This document shows, piece after piece, positions 1,523 through 59,470 of a DNA stretch of 64,000 bases (its first letter is position 1; the number at the start of each line of letters is the position of its first letter). Position numbers and translations under genes: made by a program. A model generated the notes under the pieces. It was given only the letters and a program-made list of their open reading frames with translations, had not been told where the DNA came from and did not search any database. This DNA comes from Dictyoglomus sp. (lineage in GTDB: Bacteria > Dictyoglomota > Dictyoglomia > Dictyoglomales > Dictyoglomaceae): the NCBI GenBank assembly GCA_025060475.1, contig JANXBZ010000007.1, forward strand, positions 1 to 64,000, in the 5' to 3' direction.

Positions 1523-2728
1523 TTATCTCCTAAACAATCTTACCATATTAAACATAGGAAGATACATGGAAAGAGCTATAAAAAAAACAATTCCTGCAAG
1601 TCCCAAGGTAATCATAGGCTCAATTATGGATGTTAATCTTTTTGTCTGATTATCAAGTTCCCTTTGATAAAATTTTGAGAACTCATCTAACATTTCATCA
1701 ACCCTTCCACTTCTTTCTCCAACTCCAATCATTCTCACAAGCATAGGGGGAAATATTTTTTCCTCTCTCATAAGTTCTGAAAGAGATCTTCCTTCCATAA
1801 TCCCCCTATATATCCTTTGAATACCTTCTCTAAAATATAAATTTCCTACAACATCCTGAAGAACTTCCAAAGAATTAGTAACTAAAATCCCACTAGAAAG
1901 AAGAGTACTAAAGGTACTAGCAAATCTTATTAAGATAATTTGTCTCCAAATTCTTCCAATTTGAGGGATATTTAGTTTTATTTCATCCCACCATCTTCTT
2001 ATTTTTGGATTTTTAAGAAGAATTCTTATTAAAATAAAAGAAAAAACGAAAAAAAGGAATATTAATAGAATATAATCTTTTATAAAATTACTAATAGCAA
2101 TTAAGACTCTTGTAGGAAGGGGAAGAGGAACGTTAGTTCTTCCATAAATTCTTTGGAAGACAGGTACCACAAAGGCCAAAAGGAAAATTACTACAGCAAT
2201 TGCAGCAATTATTACTATTGTAGGATAAGCCATAGCGGATTTTATTTTTTCTCTTAGTTCATGTTGGGAATCAAAGTATTTTGCAAGTCTGTCAAGCATA
2301 ATATCTAAACTTCCTGTTATTTCTCCTGTCTTTACAAGATTTATATAAATATTAGGAAAGACATGAGGAAATCTACTTAATGCGTTAGATAGACTTTCTC
2401 CTTCATCTATACTTCTCCTTACTTCTCTTAAAACTTCTTTAAAGTATTGATTATTAGTTTGCTGAGCTAAAGTATTCAGAGCATCGGTTAATAAAATTCC
2501 TGATCTTAAAAGGGTTGCAAATTGAGATGTAAATATTACCAACTCTGGTAATGGGACTTTCTTCTTTAATGTTAATTGTTTTAAAAAAGTAGATTCCTTT
2601 CTTAATGAGACTACATATAATCTTTGTCTTCTTATTAATCTTCTTGCATCCCTTTCTGTTTCTGCCTCTATTATTCCTTTTAATACTCTTCCTTGAGAAT
2701 CCTTTGCAATATATTCAAAACGAGGCAA
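1523..2728 (-). CDS. pilC: Type IV pilus / type II secretion inner-membrane platform protein PilC/GspF
   Basis: A 401-residue polytopic membrane protein with the duplicated GspF domain (about residues 68-190 and 270-392), each repeat ending in a membrane helix, plus a third helix near 215-240. The N-terminus MPRFEYIAKDSQGRVLKG is typical of the family. It forms the inner-membrane platform on which the PilB ATPase acts to push pilins into the fibre. The start is TTG at 2728, three bases after the pilB stop, preceded by a GGGAAGGTGA region. It lies immediately downstream of pilB, so the two are co-transcribed. Length is normal and nothing is missing. Confidence 0.95.
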   Translation of the reverse strand: MPRFEYIAKDSQGRVLKGIIEAETERDARRLIRRQRLYVVSLRKESTFLKQLTLKKKVPLPELVIFTSQFATLLRSGILLTDALNTLAQQTNNQYFKEVLREVRRSIDEGESLSNALSRFPHVFPNIYINLVKTGEITGSLDIMLDRLAKYFDSQHELREKIKSAMAYPTIVIIAAIAVVIFLLAFVVPVFQRIYGRTNVPLPLPTRVLIAISNFIKDYILLIFLFFVFSFILIRILLKNPKIRRWWDEIKLNIPQIGRIWRQIILIRFASTFSTLLSSGILVTNSLEVLQDVVGNLYFREGIQRIYRGIMEGRSLSELMREEKIFPPMLVRMIGVGERSGRVDEMLDEFSKFYQRELDNQTKRLTSIIEPMITLGLAGIVFFIALSMYLPMFNMVRLFRR

Positions 2729-2730
2729 AA

Positions 2731-4419
2731 TTAATCACCTTCCCAGTGAATCACTCTTCTTGCCTCTTCAAAAGTGGTTATTCCAGATAAAACTTTTTCT
2801 CTCGCATTATAGAATAAAGTTCTCATCCCCTCTTCTTCTGCCTTTTCTTTTATTTCATCAAGGGATGCCTTATTTATTATCAAATCTCTTATACTTCTAG
2901 TAACCCTTAAAATTTCAAAAACTCCCGTTCTTCCTAAAAATCCAGTATAATTACAGAGAATACATCCCCTTCCTCTATAAAGTTTTAGAGGATCGTTTAG
3001 AATTGTTGTTAATCTTAATTCTTGAATTTCTTCTTTTTCCGCAATGTATTCTTCTTTACAGGATAAACAAATGGTCCTTACTAATCTTTGAGCAACAACT
3101 CCAAGAAGAGAAGATGCAATTAAAAAGGGTTCTACTCCCATCTGTAATAAACGGGCAATAGCAGATACAGCATCATTAGCATGAAAAGTAGAAAGAACTA
3201 GATGTCCCGTTAATGCTGCTTCTATGGATGTATTTAAAGTTTCCGTATCTCTAATTTCTCCAACCATTATAATATTTGGATCCAATCTTAAGATACTTCT
3301 TAATCCCATTGCAAAATCTATATTTATTCTTGGCTGAACCTGTATCTGATTTATCCCAGGAATTTCATATTCCACAGGATCTTCTAAAGTAATTATATTC
3401 ACTTGAGGCTGATTTAAAACATTTAATGCAGCATATAAAGTTGTAGTTTTTCCACTTCCTGTAGGACCTGTAACTAAAATAAGGCCAAAAGGTTTTCTTA
3501 TAAGACTTTCAAAAATAGATAAATCTTGAGAAGACATTCCCAATCGATCCAATTCTATTAAAACTTTTGTTTTATCTAAAAGCCTAATTACAACCATTTC
3601 TCCATGAGATGCACCAATACTTGCTACTCTTAAATCAAAAATTCTGTTTTCATATCTATAAGATGTTCTTCCATCTTGAGGTCTTCTTTTCTCAGCAATA
3701 TCCATTCCTGCCATAACTTTTATTCTACTCACTACTGCATCCTGAAGCTCCTTAGGAATACTCATTATATCAAATAGTATCCCATCTATTCGATATCTCA
3801 CTCTCATATCTTTCTCTTGGGGATCTAAATGAATATCACTAGCATTTCTTAATATTGCTTCATTTATAATAGAAGAAACCAGTCTTACTACTGGTGCTTC
3901 TTCTACTTCTATCACAGGAGGTGCTTCTACAACTATCTCTACTGGCCTTCTTGACTGATAATTTTGGATTACTTCCTTTGTGGTTTTATCTAAGGAAAAT
4001 ACTTGAGATAAAGCCTGATTAAATTCTTTTTCTGTTATCAAAAATAACTTTAAAGGTGATCTTACTATTCTTCTTATTTCATTAACCACTGCAGAATCCA
4101 AGGGAGGAACAATAGCAACATGAACTATTCCCCCTTCTCTTCTTAGCGGTAAAAATCTAAATCTTCTTAGTATTCCTTCTGGAAAATTTGAAATAAATCT
4201 TTCATCAATCTTCATTTCTGAAAGAGGAATATAGGGAACTTCACTCTGTAATTCTAAAACCCTTCCAATATCCTCAGGCTTTACGTATCCCCTTTCAATT
4301 AAAATTTGTCCCAAACGAGCTCCTGTTTTTTTCTGCTCTTCAAGAGCTTTTTCTAACTGCTCTCTTGTTATCAATCCCAATTCTAAAAGATATTCCCCAA
4401 TGGGTTTTTTATCTTTCAT
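2731..4419 (-). CDS. pilB: Type IV pilus assembly ATPase PilB/GspE
   Basis: A 562-residue hexameric motor ATPase. The N-terminal MshEN-type domain (residues 1 to about 150) begins with the typical [20 protein letters not shown]. The ATPase core carries Walker A GPTGSGKT (about 318-325), an Asp box near 345, Walker B VGEIRD (about 386-391) and a His box near 413. A zinc tetracysteine is present (Cys451, 454, 486, 489), which marks extension (PilB/GspE) rather than retraction (PilT) ATPases. The ATG at 4419 overlaps the gatB stop by 4 nt, so translation is coupled to gatB. No pilT-like gene is visible in this window. Confidence 0.95.
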
Positions 4420-5870
4420 AATTTTTTACTCAATTCTTCCTCTAAAAGATTCTTAACCAAATCTAAACTTGCCCTTCCCTTTGTCTCCTTCATCACCTGT
4501 CCTACTAAAAAGTTTATCACATTTTTCTTTCCCTTTACATAATCAAAGACTGCCTTTTCATTTTCATCTATAACCTTTTTTACTACCTCTTTTAGAAAAT
4601 CTAAATCGCTTACCGTTTTTAGTCCCTCTTTCTCAACTATTTCTTCAGGAGATTCTTTTGTATCTAAGTATTTTCTTAAGATTTCTTTTCCTACGGGTCT
4701 TGTGATTTCATTTCTATCTACCATCTCTATGATTTTAACAAACTCTTTTGGCTCAATCTTTAAATCTCTAAAACTCAATTTTTGCTCATTTAGGTAACTC
4801 ATAAGTTCCACAGTTATCCAATTACTCAAATTTTTGGCATTATTGTATAATCTATAACATTCATCAAAAAATTCACAAAGTTCCCTCTCTGAAGTAATAA
4901 TCTCTGCTTCTATAGATGATAAAGCAAAGGTATTTTGTAGATATAATTTTCTTTGAAGAGGTAAAAGAGGTATAGTTTTTCTAATTTCCTCTAAAGTTTC
5001 TTTGGGAATTATTAGTGGAGGAATGTCTGGTTCTGGAAAGTATCTATAGTCTTCTGCTTCTTCTTTACCTCTTAAGGTTACCGTTATTTGCTTTTTCTCA
5101 TCCCAATGTCTTGTTTCTTGAATTACTTCTTTTCCTTCCTTTAAAAGGTTAATTTGTCTTTCAATTTCGTACTCCAAAGCTTTTTCTAAAGAGTAAAAAG
5201 AGTTTACATTCTTAATTTCTGTTCTTGTTCCTAAGATTCCATTTTCAGTCATTATAGATATATTAGCATCACATCTTAAGGAACCTTTCTCCATGTCTCC
5301 ACTACTTACTTCTAAATATCTTAATATTTTCCTTAATTCTTGGAGAAATAACCTTGCTTCTTTTGCAGAGTGAATATCGGGTTCCGTCACTATCTCCATT
5401 AATGGAATACCACATCTATTTAAATCTACAAGGCTATATTCTGCCTCTGCTAATCTATCTCCTTCTCCCACATGAAGCAATTTCCCTGTATCTTCCTCTA
5501 AATGAATTCTCTTTAATCTAACCCTTTTTATTTCTGAATCTACCTCAAATTCTACATATCCACCTCTTGCTAAAGGAAGATCATACTGAGAAATTTGATA
5601 TCCCTTTGGAAGATCGGGATAAAAATAATTTTTTCTATCGAATTTAGAAAAAGGAGATATTTCACAATTTAAAGCAAGAGCAGTTTTAATAAGAAGTTCT
5701 ATAGCTTTTTTATTAGGTACAGGAAGAACCCCAGGCATTCCCATACAAATAGGACAAACAAGAGTATTTGGAGGAGCATTCTCATGATCAGTACTACAGG
5801 AACAAAACATTTTTGACTTCGTCAAAAGCTGAGCATGAACTTCTAAACCAATAACAGGAATATACATCAT
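4416..5870 (-). CDS. gatB: Asp-tRNA(Asn)/Glu-tRNA(Gln) amidotransferase subunit B
   Basis: A 484-residue protein with the GatB catalytic cradle, which activates the acyl group of misacylated Glu-tRNA(Gln) or Asp-tRNA(Asn) and receives ammonia from GatA. Family marks seen are the N-terminal IGLEVHAQL, a zinc-type CxC...CxxC set near residues 23-43, TEIKNVNSF, and [12 protein letters not shown]. The helical YqeY-like tail domain occupies the last 150 residues or so. The ATG overlaps the gatA stop by 4 nt. The genes run gatC-gatA-gatB-pilB-pilC in transcription order. Confidence 0.96.
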
Positions 5871-54063: not shown

Positions 54064-54096
54064 GAGGGACCGGAGAAGGGGGTTAACCGGTCCCTC
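54064..54096. terminator. Bidirectional terminator between converging arsR-type and porV-like genes
   Basis: A 10-bp GC-rich stem (GAGGGACCGG, 54064-54073, with CCGGTCCCTC, 54087-54096) is followed by C and T7 on the plus strand. It lies between the two converging stop codons and can serve both genes. Confidence 0.9.
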
Positions 54097-54107: not shown

Positions 54108-55412
54108 TTAGAATTGGATGGAGCCAGAGAAAGAAGCCACTAAAGGCATTGTATTCTGTATTGTTTCCATAAAGGAACCTTCCGCTTGATATCCTAATCC
54201 TGCATCTACTCTTAAGAATAATAAGTTTATTCCTGCACCAACAGTGAAACATTTAGGTTGGAAATTAGTATCCAATATTGCACCGCCTCTTACTGTTAAG
54301 AATAGTAAAGGCTGTTCTATTCCAAGTTTATATAACGTAGGCTGGAAGTTTTTATCTAAATCTACATCAAAAGCAATCCTTGTGGAAAGAACAGGAAGTT
54401 TTAATAAAGCTCCCGCCTTGAGAGTTAGAGGGGGGATATCAAATTCAACTTCTATTTCTTCAGGAGAGAGAGAACCTGAGTCTACAGAAGAACTATAAGT
54501 ATAATTAACACCAGTTAAATTTCCATAATTATCATATGTTGGAGAAAAGTATCCCATCTCTTCTTCCCAATAATACTCTCCACCGATCCATTTAGCATAA
54601 ACATTCTGAGCGGATATTCCAAGGGCAAAATTATCTGAAAGTTTTAAATATGCTCCAAGATCTATTGCCCAATTTCTAATATTCCACATATTTTTTGTAC
54701 GATCTAGATAATTATATGCGGTATATCCATAGTAGTCTCCCCCCTTAATATATCCCCCATATAATAATCCAGCACCATTTACCTGGGTTGCTATACCTTG
54801 GTGTTCTACCCCAAAAACATTTACTCTTAAATTTGCTCCAATATTTAGTTTCATATTTCCCAAATTAATAATAGGAAGACCCAAAGTTAATGCACCATTA
54901 AGATTTAGTGGAGCAAAAAACCATATATTTCCTTTTATAACAGTATGGGTAGGATCTGTAGTATTATAATTATAATTATAATTAGTAAATTTATAATATT
55001 CAACATTTAAATTAGCATCTCCCCAAACTGTAAGCCCCAGTCTTCCTATTCCTAAATTCGCATATCCTGTTAGGAAAGTATTTGCAGATAGGTCGTCATC
55101 AGGAGGTTCCTGTTGCCCAATTATATTTATATATTCCATTATTTTATTAAAGTTATTCCATTCCGTTTCATCTACTGGCCAAAAGCCAAAGCCAACTTTT
55201 AAAGAGAAGCTATTATATTCTCCCATTAATGCAGGGTTAAAAATTGCAGATGTGGGAGAATCACCAAGGGCAGTCATTGCTCCTGCCATACCCAGGGCTC
55301 TTGGATCCTTTGCAAGAGGAAAAAGTGACTCCCCAGTAACTTCCACAGCTAAGGTATAAACAGGAATCAGGAGGAAAATTAATGTAAGGAGAATTATTAA
55401 TTTATTTCTCAT
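54108..55412 (-). CDS. PorV/TraF-like outer-membrane beta-barrel protein
   Basis: A 434-residue exported protein. A signal peptide (about 1-22, MRNKLIILLTLIFLL then IPVYTLA) precedes PLAKDPRALGMAGAMTALGDSPTSAIFNPAL, a hallmark of the PorV/TraF/UPF0164 barrel group. Alternating hydrophobic/aromatic strands run to the C-terminus, which ends SFSGSIQF with a terminal Phe as in outer-membrane proteins. Its presence implies an outer membrane. The role (transport or secretion accessory) is unknown. GGAGG precedes the ATG. Confidence 0.8.
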   Translation of the reverse strand: MRNKLIILLTLIFLLIPVYTLAVEVTGESLFPLAKDPRALGMAGAMTALGDSPTSAIFNPALMGEYNSFSLKVGFGFWPVDETEWNNFNKIMEYINIIGQQEPPDDDLSANTFLTGYANLGIGRLGLTVWGDANLNVEYYKFTNYNYNYNTTDPTHTVIKGNIWFFAPLNLNGALTLGLPIINLGNMKLNIGANLRVNVFGVEHQGIATQVNGAGLLYGGYIKGGDYYGYTAYNYLDRTKNMWNIRNWAIDLGAYLKLSDNFALGISAQNVYAKWIGGEYYWEEEMGYFSPTYDNYGNLTGVNYTYSSSVDSGSLSPEEIEVEFDIPPLTLKAGALLKLPVLSTRIAFDVDLDKNFQPTLYKLGIEQPLLFLTVRGGAILDTNFQPKCFTVGAGINLLFLRVDAGLGYQAEGSFMETIQNTMPLVASFSGSIQF

Positions 55413-55456: not shown

Positions 55457-55511
55457 GAATTTTCTAATTTTTTCTTACGATTTTAATATAAACTTAAAAA
55501 TTCTCTTTGTC

Positions 55512-55550
55512 TGTGATTTTTGTCACATATTTTTTGTGATTTTAGTCATA
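55512..55550. promoter_or_regulatory. Tandem CRP/FNR- or Rex-like palindromes upstream of hsp20-lon
   Basis: Site 1 (55512-55527) is TGTGA-N6-TCACA, a perfect palindrome. Site 2 (55535-55550) is TGTGA-N6-TCATA. The two 16-mers differ at only two positions and are spaced 23 bp centre to centre, about two DNA turns. Site 2 covers the expected -35 region, so binding there could repress or control the operon. Confidence 0.65.
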
Positions 55551-55558
55551 TAAAATGA

Positions 55559-55564
55559 TATAAT
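55559..55564 (+). promoter_or_regulatory. hsp20-lon -10 box
   Basis: TATAAT at 55559-55564 with predicted start near 55571. No consensus -35 lies at 16-18 nt; TTGTGA at 55534-55539 is 19 nt away and forms part of operator-like site 2. An activator or alternative contact may be needed. Confidence 0.6.
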
Positions 55565-55600
55565 CAAAAAGAAGAACTCTTAGAATTAATGGAGGCAGAG

Positions 55601-56002
55601 ATGAAAAAGGATGAAATCTTTATGAAAGAAGATGAGTATTTCAGAAGTCAAATATTTAGATTAGTAGATTGTTTTTATAGGCATGGAAGTAAGGTTCCTT
55701 TTCAATGGGGTGCATGGATCCCTGCAGTTGATGTTTACGAAACTGAAGATAAAATAGTAGTTTTAGTAGATATTGCTGGGGTAAATAAAGAGAATATAGA
55801 TTTAACTTTCCAAGAGAATAAACTTCTTATAAGAGGAACAAGACCTGTTAGATCCTATTCTAATCCTGAAATCTACTATCAGATGGAAATAAATTTTGGT
55901 CCCTTTGAAAGAGTAATACATCTTCCCTGTGCTGTTGATGCAGAAAAAGCAGAGGCAGTATATAAAGAGGGATTTTTAGAGATTTTACTTCCCAAAAAGT
56001 AA
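55601..56002 (+). CDS. Small heat-shock protein (Hsp20/alpha-crystallin)
   Basis: A 133-residue holdase. A short N-terminal region precedes the alpha-crystallin domain (about 40-130), with WIPAVDVYETEDKIVVLVDIAG, the L9-like AEAVYKEGFLEILLPKK end, and VNKENIDLTFQENKLLIRG in between. There is no C-terminal IxI extension: the protein ends right after LLPKK. ATG 55601 is chosen because GGAGG lies 5 nt before it; the ATG at 55589 overlaps that site. It heads an operon with lon and the eRF1-like gene. Confidence 0.92.
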   Translation: MKKDEIFMKEDEYFRSQIFRLVDCFYRHGSKVPFQWGAWIPAVDVYETEDKIVVLVDIAGVNKENIDLTFQENKLLIRGTRPVRSYSNPEIYYQMEINFGPFERVIHLPCAVDAEKAEAVYKEGFLEILLPKK

Positions 56003-56022: not shown

Positions 56023-58407
56023 ATGGACGAGCAGGAATTAAAAGGTATTGAGAATATTCCAGAGATCCTGCCTATCCTTCCGTTGAGGGAGACAGTAGTT
56101 TATCCTCAAATGTTAATTCCTTTAGTGGTAGGAAGAGAAAAAAGTTTAAAGCTTATAGAAGATGCCATTTCAGGAAATAAACTTATTGGACTTTGTATGC
56201 AAAAATCTCCTATTGAAGAACCAACTTATGATGATATTCATAGAATTGGAACTGTTGGTATTATTGTAAGAATGTTAAGATTTCCTGACAATACTATAAG
56301 ACTTTTTGTTCAGGGACTTCAAAGAATTAGAATTGAAGAGTTTATTCAAAGTGATCCATATTTTAAAGCAAAGATATCTGTGATAAGTGAATCCTATGAA
56401 AAAACTATTGAAATAGAAGGTGCAATGAGAAATCTTATTTCTCTATTCCAGAAGATGGCATCTTTAATTCCTCAATTTCCTGAAGAACTTTTAATTAATG
56501 CAATGAATATTCAGGATCCAGGAAGATTGGCAGACTTTATTGCCTTTAATATAAATATTAATGTAAATGAAAAACAGGAAATCTTAGAGACTATAGATAT
56601 AAAAGAAAGACTTCAGAAATTAACCTATTTTTTAACTCGAGAAATTGAAATTCTTGAAATAGCTAATAAAATCCAAAATGATGTAAAGAATGAGATAGAA
56701 AAAAGTCAAAGAGAATACTTCTTAAGACAACAAATGAAAGCAATACAAAAGGAATTAGGAGAAATAGATCCAAGAGAGATGGAAGTAAATGAACTTCGAC
56801 AAAAATTACAAGATGCAAAATTACCTCCTGAAGCCATGAAAGAAGCGGAAAGAGAATTGGAAAGACTAGCTCAAATGCCTCCTGCATCTGCAGAATATAC
56901 TGTAACAAGAACATATTTGGACTGGATGATTTCTCTTCCTTGGAGTAAGAGTACTATTGATAACTTAGATATTCAAAAAGCTGCCCAGGTTCTAGACGAG
57001 GATCATTATGATTTAGAAAAAATAAAAGAAAGAATTCTAGAGTATTTAGCGGTTAGAAAAATGAAAGAAGACATGAAAGGTCCAATTCTCTGTTTTGTAG
57101 GACCACCTGGAGTTGGAAAGACTTCTCTTGGAAAATCAATTGCACGAGCTTTAGGAAGAAAGTTTGTAAGAATTTCGCTCGGAGGTATTAGAGATGAGGC
57201 AGAGATAAGGGGACATAGAAGAACCTATGTAGGAGCATTACCAGGAAGAATAATTCAGGGAATGAGAAAAGCAGAATCTAATAATCCAGTATTTATGTTA
57301 GATGAAATTGACAAGATAGGTACAGATTTTAGAGGAGATCCTGCTGCTGCTTTGTTAGAAGTTTTAGACCCAGAACAAAATAATAATTTCGTAGATAATT
57401 ATCTTGGAGTTCCTTTTGATCTCTCCAAGGTGATGTTTATTGCAACAGCTAATGTTCTTTACACAATTCCTCCTGCCCTATTAGATAGAATGGAAGTTTT
57501 AGAACTTCCAGGATATACAGAATTAGAAAAAATCGGAATTGCTAAAGGATATTTGATTCCAAGACAATTAAAAGAGCACGGCTTGGATCAGGATAAATTA
57601 GAATTTGAAGAATCTGCAATTAAAAAGATAATAAGAGAATACACAAGAGAAGCAGGTGTAAGAAATTTAGAAAGAGAAATTGCTACTATATGTAGAAAAG
57701 TAGCCAAGGGATACGCAGAAGGAAGTATAAACGAGAAAGTGATCGTTAATGAGGAAAATATTCATAAGTATTTAGGACCCTCAAAATATATCTATGGATT
57801 AAAAGGTGAAAAAGATGAAATTGGTGTTGCAACAGGACTTGCATGGACAGAAGCAGGAGGAGATGTACTGTTTGTAGAGGTATTAGTCGTTGAAGGAAAG
57901 GGTAATTTGATATTAACAGGTAAATTAGGAGAAGTAATGCAAGAGTCTGCAAAAACAGCACTATCTTATGTTAGATCAAAGTCTAAGGATTTAAACATAA
58001 GTTACGATATGTTCGAAAAATCCGATGTTCACATTCATTTACCATCAGGAGCTATTCCCAAAGATGGTCCATCCGCAGGAATAACCATAGCTACTGCTCT
58101 TGCATCTGCCTTTACTGGTAGACCCGTTAAAAAGGATATAGGAATGACAGGAGAAATAACTTTAAGAGGAAAAGTGCTTCCTGTAGGAGGAATAAGAGAA
58201 AAAGTTTTAGCTGCCCATAGAGCAGGATTAACATCAGTTATTATGCCAAAAGAAAATGAGAAAGACTTAGAAGAGATTCCAGAGCAGGTTAAAAAGGAAC
58301 TTAAATTCTATTTCGTAGAACATGCTGATGAAGTCCTCCAATTAGCTTTATTGGAGGTGAAAAAAGATGATACTAAAAGAAAACTTGAAGAGGTTAGGGA
58401 GTCTTAA
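56023..58407 (+). CDS. lon: ATP-dependent protease Lon
   Basis: A 794-residue LonA protease. The N-terminal substrate domain begins [15 protein letters not shown], followed by a coiled-coil (about 225-285) and the AAA+ module with Walker [19 protein letters not shown] and the sensor region. The protease domain has the Ser-Lys dyad Ser684 (DGPSAGIT) and Lys727 ([11 protein letters not shown]). It degrades misfolded proteins. AAGGAGGAAAG precedes the ATG 20 nt after hsp20, fitting a heat/proteostasis operon. Its end overlaps the next gene by 41 nt. Confidence 0.96.
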
Positions 58408-59470
58408 TTTTTCTCCTTTTCTTATAACTTCCCTATATTTGAATATTTCACCCTTAGAATATCCTAAGGGTGAATATAGATTGATTTGGAAAAACTTCCA
58501 AAAAGAAATATTAAATTTTTCTGCAGAAGACAGAGAAATAAAAAAATCTCTTTTGGATGATGCAGAAAAAATCTCCAATTTTCTTGATCAAGAAATTAAT
58601 ACTTCTGTAAATACTCTGGTTATTTTCAGCTGTAGTGCAAAAAACTGGTTCGAAGTTTATCCTCTTTATCCCTCATTAAAATCCAAGTTAGTAATAGATA
58701 AAGATCCTTATACAAAACCTATTATTAGATTATTAGCATCCCAAAATCCATATTTGATAATATTATTAGCTAAAGATAAAGCAAGAATTTTCACTTATCA
58801 TTTGGGAATGTTAAAAGAAGAGGGAGAAGTTGAGAGTGAGGTTCCAAAGAAACATAAACAGGGAGGATGGGAAACATCGGACTGGCAAAGATGGCATGAA
58901 ATTCATGTTATTTGGCATTTAAGGGATGTAATTGATTTTATAAAAAAAATTAATAATGATAAAAGAATCATAATAGGAGGAAGTTCTCATACTGTATCGG
59001 AATTTAAAGAGTTATTACCCAAAAACTTCAAGGAAAGAATAGTTGGAGAACTCAATCTTGAGATTACTTCTCCTATAAAGGAATTATTAGATAAAGTTGA
59101 AAAATTCATTAGTGAATATGAAGAAAGGGAAACAAGAGAGTTAGTAGAAAGAATTTTTGTGAATACCAAAAAAGGGAAAGATTCTACTTATGGATTAGAA
59201 GAGGTTGCTTTTGTGGTACATGAAGACAGAATCCAAACATTATTAGTTACAGAAAATTTTGAAAAAGAAGGATTTCAATGTCCAAAATGTTCCTATATAA
59301 GTCCATATTTAACAGAATGTCCTTTTTGCAATATAAAAATGGCGAAAAGAAATGATATTGTAGATGAAATTATAGAAGAAGCTATTAATAAAAAAGCAAA
59401 ACTTATATTTATTAAAGATAAAAATTTAGGAGAAAAAATCGAAAATATTGGTGCAATTTTAAGATTTTAA
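58367..59470 (+). CDS. Archaeo-eukaryotic release-factor-like protein (baeRF/eRF1 type) with GGW in place of GGQ
   Basis: A 367-residue protein that aligns by eye with archaeal RF1/eRF1. The first 120 residues contain ITSLYLNIS and [37 protein letters not shown] (160-175) corresponds to the catalytic PKKHGRGGQS loop, with Trp168 instead of the GGQ Gln. A zinc ribbon (Cys305, 308, 318, 321) and a C-terminus IGAILRF matching the aRF1 GGIAAILRY complete a domain-3-like end. Bacterial members (baeRF) are proposed ribosome-associated factors, perhaps releasing stalled peptides. GGAGGTG inside lon precedes the ATG, so translation is coupled to the protease. Exact function unproven. Confidence 0.8.

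Follow-up and report, generated by a model that had tools for sequence, protein, structure and literature searches.

Activation of transcription usually requires phased sites, whereas occlusion of a promoter needs none. The galP1 promoter is an example of a class II CRP-dependent promoter of Escherichia coli, with its site at -41.5. A site centre at -41.5 is the geometry of class II activation by CRP (PMC5957442). The reported regulon of DR0997, the CRP of Deinococcus radiodurans, includes two Lon proteases (PMC4868304), and control of lon by CRP therefore has a precedent. The operator of the NADH sensor Rex is TTGTGAAW4TTCACAA (PMC2883068).

The window analyzed here is a stretch of 64,000 nucleotides of the Dictyoglomus sp. 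genome, in which two predicted CRP-type palindromes lie between divergent genes. Site 1 occupies 55512-55527 (TGTGATTTTTGTCACA; minus strand TGTGACAAAAATCACA; centre 55519.5) and site 2 occupies 55535-55550 (TGTGATTTTAGTCATA; centre 55542.5). The two differ at two bases and are 23 bp apart from start to start, which confirms a sequence-only reading that had described near-identical palindromes at these coordinates. To the right, on the plus strand, are hsp20, encoding a small heat shock protein (55601-56002), and, 20 bp downstream, the gene for Lon protease (56023-58407). The hsp20 start at 55601 (MKKDEIF) is more likely than that at 55589, because the sister species G001 lacks the first ATG and ATGGAGG reads as a ribosome-binding site. 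Directly after lon, and overlapping its end, 58367-59470 encodes an archaeo-eukaryotic release-factor-like protein (baeRF family 10). The same reading had assigned TATAAT as the sole strong element of the hsp20-lon promoter. The promoter indeed has no good -35 and site 2 lies over its -35 zone, ending 8 bp upstream of TATAAT (55559-55564), and the element is better described as an extended -10, TGATATAAT (55556-55564, plus strand).

The divergent gene upstream of the sites, at 54108-55412 on the minus strand, had been left unweighed. Its predicted -10 (TATATT, 55485-55490, minus strand) lies 21 bp from site 1 and is weaker than the TATAAT of hsp20. The product resembles PorV/FadL-like outer-membrane beta-barrel proteins: it matched PorV_fam at 2e-7, below the curated cut-off, and its C-terminal end is SGSIQF. 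A structure model of low confidence (pLDDT 57) matched outer-membrane barrels, among them FadL and chains of the type IX secretion system, and we take these matches as only supportive of a barrel. At 54066-54094, a perfect inverted repeat (GGGACCGG/CCGGTCCC) is followed by a T run and is likely a terminator common to an ArsR-type gene and the outer-membrane gene.

When the genome was scanned for the strict motif WGTGA-N6-TCACW, 12 sites were found versus 1 for the reversed control. The corresponding numbers were 16 versus 1 (G001, the highest count) and 11 versus 2 in two congeners, which together with the present genome form genus g1. Among the genomes of the second group, g2, G005 had 8 versus 1, and the other three were close to background (counts among g2 included 6 versus 5 and 2 versus 1). 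The p-values of these comparisons are too small, since orthologous promoters are not independent and the choice of pattern inflates significance too. The loose motif (up to two mismatches) was not enriched in the window (18 observed, 19.7 expected). Ten of the 12 strict sites of the present genome were judged intergenic, a count that includes one site inside a 58-aa open reading frame treated as spurious; open reading frames cover approximately 96% of the window by a greedy count. Thus, the whole-genome scan that the sequence-only reading had called for revealed a strict motif that is enriched before genes, as TGTGA-N6-TCACA, and almost exclusively intergenic. Most of the sites stand before genes of the envelope and of signalling, and not before stress or redox genes. 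Half-sites are A-rich followed by TGTGAT, in which TGTGA is followed by T in 77%, by C in 18% and by A in 1%, and position -1 is T in 14% only.

The same reading had left the choice between a redox sensor (Rex or FNR) and a CRP-family regulator open, and had suggested a search for their genes. One full-length CRP/FNR-family protein was found in each of six genomes (G000, the present one, to G005) beside lower-scoring HTH matches in further open reading frames, and a partial match was found in the incomplete G006. The crp gene of the present genome (contig C2, about 79.4-80.1 kb; 2443-3123 of the fetched stretch L146) encodes a cNMP-binding domain (PF00027, 4e-27) and a Crp HTH (PF13545, 1e-19), and its best full-length sequence matches in the PDB are GlxR, Mycobacterium tuberculosis CRP and E. 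coli CRP. The phosphate cassette GEMSLLDGEPRSA and the recognition-helix stretch SRET are invariant across four CRP orthologues. An alignment made by eye shows that, at the positions of T127/S128, which contact cAMP in E. coli CRP, the CRP encoded here has other residues, and the ligand is for this reason uncertain. Autoregulation of crp is not indicated: in the present genome, no site was found close to the gene.

A Rex gene is also present in this genome, and Rex operators, too, contain TGTGA-N6-TCACA, so that the palindromes might be read as Rex operators that place proteostasis under redox control. However, profile and protein searches found no Rex gene in G001, which nevertheless carries its 16 strict sites, and the inner base and position -1 of the half-sites rarely match the Rex consensus. 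TTGTGAA-W4-TTCACAA operators with a Rex gene in every motif-bearing species were not what we found. We rejected Rex as the regulator on the absence of its gene from G001 and the near absence of A at the inner base, and consider this reading very improbable. Rex genes occur in G000, G002 and the g2 genomes, and that of the present genome adjoins a gene that resembles, by eye, an iron-only hydrogenase. The motif, the gene and the regulon point to the CRP family, and an FNR-type redox sensor is disfavoured. The regulator of the palindromes is thus probably CRP-type and probably cAMP-dependent; we infer both the binding of CRP to the palindromes and cAMP as its ligand. The contrast drawn earlier with HrcA/CIRCE was correct: the genome encodes HrcA and has three CIRCE matches, none of which is at hsp20-lon, and control of this locus by HrcA was rejected.

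A class III cyclase, a putative adenylate cyclase, is encoded in six of the seven genomes (G000-G005). In G000, G001 and G002, an operon of FecR, CHASE2-cyclase and GAF/HD genes is headed by a strict site (domains were checked in G000), which suggests feedback. In G000 this operon lies at C7:109800-116300 (L165), with the strict CRP-type site at position 4992 of that stretch. The gene order is identical in the fetched stretches of G001-G004, and no clear CRP site was found upstream of the g2 operon. The motif and its enrichment, conservation and spacing were read from the genomes in the same way as the regulator and cyclase genes.

The regulon was compiled from pattern searches and fetched stretches of the genomes. 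Near the strict intergenic sites, each second site (at most one mismatch) was exactly 23 bp away, which gave eight tandem pairs in the three g1 genomes versus none in the controls; one further weak match was found in the g2 genome G006. Three of the eight are orthologues at the hsp20-lon locus. Four lie between co-directional genes, and a tandem pair therefore appears to serve one promoter, with the gene-proximal site near -41. The genes at the pairs mostly encode PorV/UPF0164-type outer-membrane proteins, and one encodes a lipoprotein. Other sites precede genes for a CHASE4-GGDEF protein, polysaccharide biosynthesis, PEGA/DUF4384 and DUF4388 products and a pilin-like protein.

Promoter geometry separated the two genes that flank the palindromes. 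For 40 hand-picked gene-facing sites, -10-like hexamers clustered 20-22 bp away, and among all 90 intergenic site-directions 28 such hexamers were found at offsets of 20-22 bp versus 1.3 per offset elsewhere; the genome is AT-rich, and the promoters are predictions based on hexamers. An offset of 20-22 bp corresponds to the class II geometry, with the operator centre at approximately -41.5. Site 1 is kept in six species, and its distance from the -10 of the outer-membrane gene is 21, 21, 21, 22 and 22 bp in G000, G001, G002, G003 and G005, respectively, and 22 bp in G004, where it was read off the sequence directly; the operator centre is thus at about -41.5 in all six. Site 2, centred at -64.5 of the leftward promoter, is confined to genus g1, and the g2 locus has a single site.

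The corresponding distances to the hsp20 -10 in the six species are 8, 8, 16, 8, 12 and 15 bp, which place the sites in differing helical phases. In the present genome, the centres lie at about -28.5 (site 2) and -51.5 (site 1) of the hsp20 promoter, and the sites cover the -35 zone of this extended -10 promoter. The sequence-only reading had named the hsp20-lon promoter as the target. Comparison with relatives confirmed that each of the six species has a site upstream of hsp20, but only the leftward promoter has class II spacing. If CRP activated hsp20-lon, perhaps from site 1 (-51.5), and left the leftward gene alone, this would agree with the conserved position and with a strong -10 that has no -35, like those of activator-dependent promoters. 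However, the distance is never 20-22 bp, the TGN extended -10 is able to work without a -35, and tandem pairs elsewhere serve genes that have no divergent neighbour. We regard such activation as improbable. Because the spacing is unphased and activation normally needs phasing, we favour occlusion of hsp20-lon, at about even odds.

Taken as a whole, the reading that we favour, and consider likely, is that the CRP operators activate the leftward outer-membrane gene and probably occlude hsp20-lon. Both palindromes would be operators of the single full-length CRP-family activator. From -41.5, site 1 would direct class II activation of the PorV/FadL-like gene, which we consider likely. Site 2 at -64.5 would hold a second dimer, in a layout apparently reused at outer-membrane and lipoprotein promoters of g1. 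Since the CRP sites also span the -35 zone of the extended -10 promoter on the other side, bound CRP would probably occlude hsp20-lon, although for repression as such the chances appear about even. The outcome would be reciprocal control of a surface protein and proteostasis. Alternatively, the sites may act on the outer-membrane gene only, with their proximity to hsp20-lon due simply to the shortness of the divergent region. That class II geometry is kept solely leftward while the hsp20 spacing drifts among species would fit this, but all the species have a site (site 2 in g1, the single one in g2) over the -35/spacer zone of hsp20, where a bound dimer should hinder RNA polymerase; we consider this alternative rather unlikely. 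Returning to dual control, we suggest tentatively, as something less than an even prospect, that in g1 the fixed 23-bp tandem operator (-41.5/-64.5) is a module of outer-membrane and lipoprotein promoters that doubles here as a repressor of hsp20-lon, such that cAMP would trade envelope synthesis against protein quality control.

A small literature search found no study of a Dictyoglomus CRP regulon and nothing direct on tandem CRP sites at -41.5/-64.5. The sensor cyclase, regulator, operator and targets together provide a testable draft of a cAMP-CRP regulon for a deep-branching thermophilic lineage, in which hsp20-lon would be tied to the CRP network, outside HrcA, and the 23-bp tandem spacing, which never varies, is an unusual arrangement of operators.

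The predicted leftward promoter resembles the class II promoters of E. coli in that a TGTGA-N6-TCACA operator is centred at about -41.5 over a poor -35, and the regulator resembles E. coli CRP in its R-E-x3-R recognition helix. Unlike at E. coli class III promoters, in which the second dimer is typically at -93.5 (PMC5957442), the second dimer here would be at -64.5. DR0997 of D. radiodurans shares the TGTGA-N6-TCACA sites; however, it is linked to the oxidative and DNA-damage response, whereas in Dictyoglomus most sites are found before genes for the envelope and for signalling, and CRP probably occludes hsp20-lon. GlxR of Corynebacterium glutamicum and CRP of M. tuberculosis (Rv3676) are the closest solved structures by full-length sequence, but their regulons differ and cAMP dependence in Dictyoglomus is putative. 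Judged from sequence, the palindromes are a real and conserved CRP-type operator.
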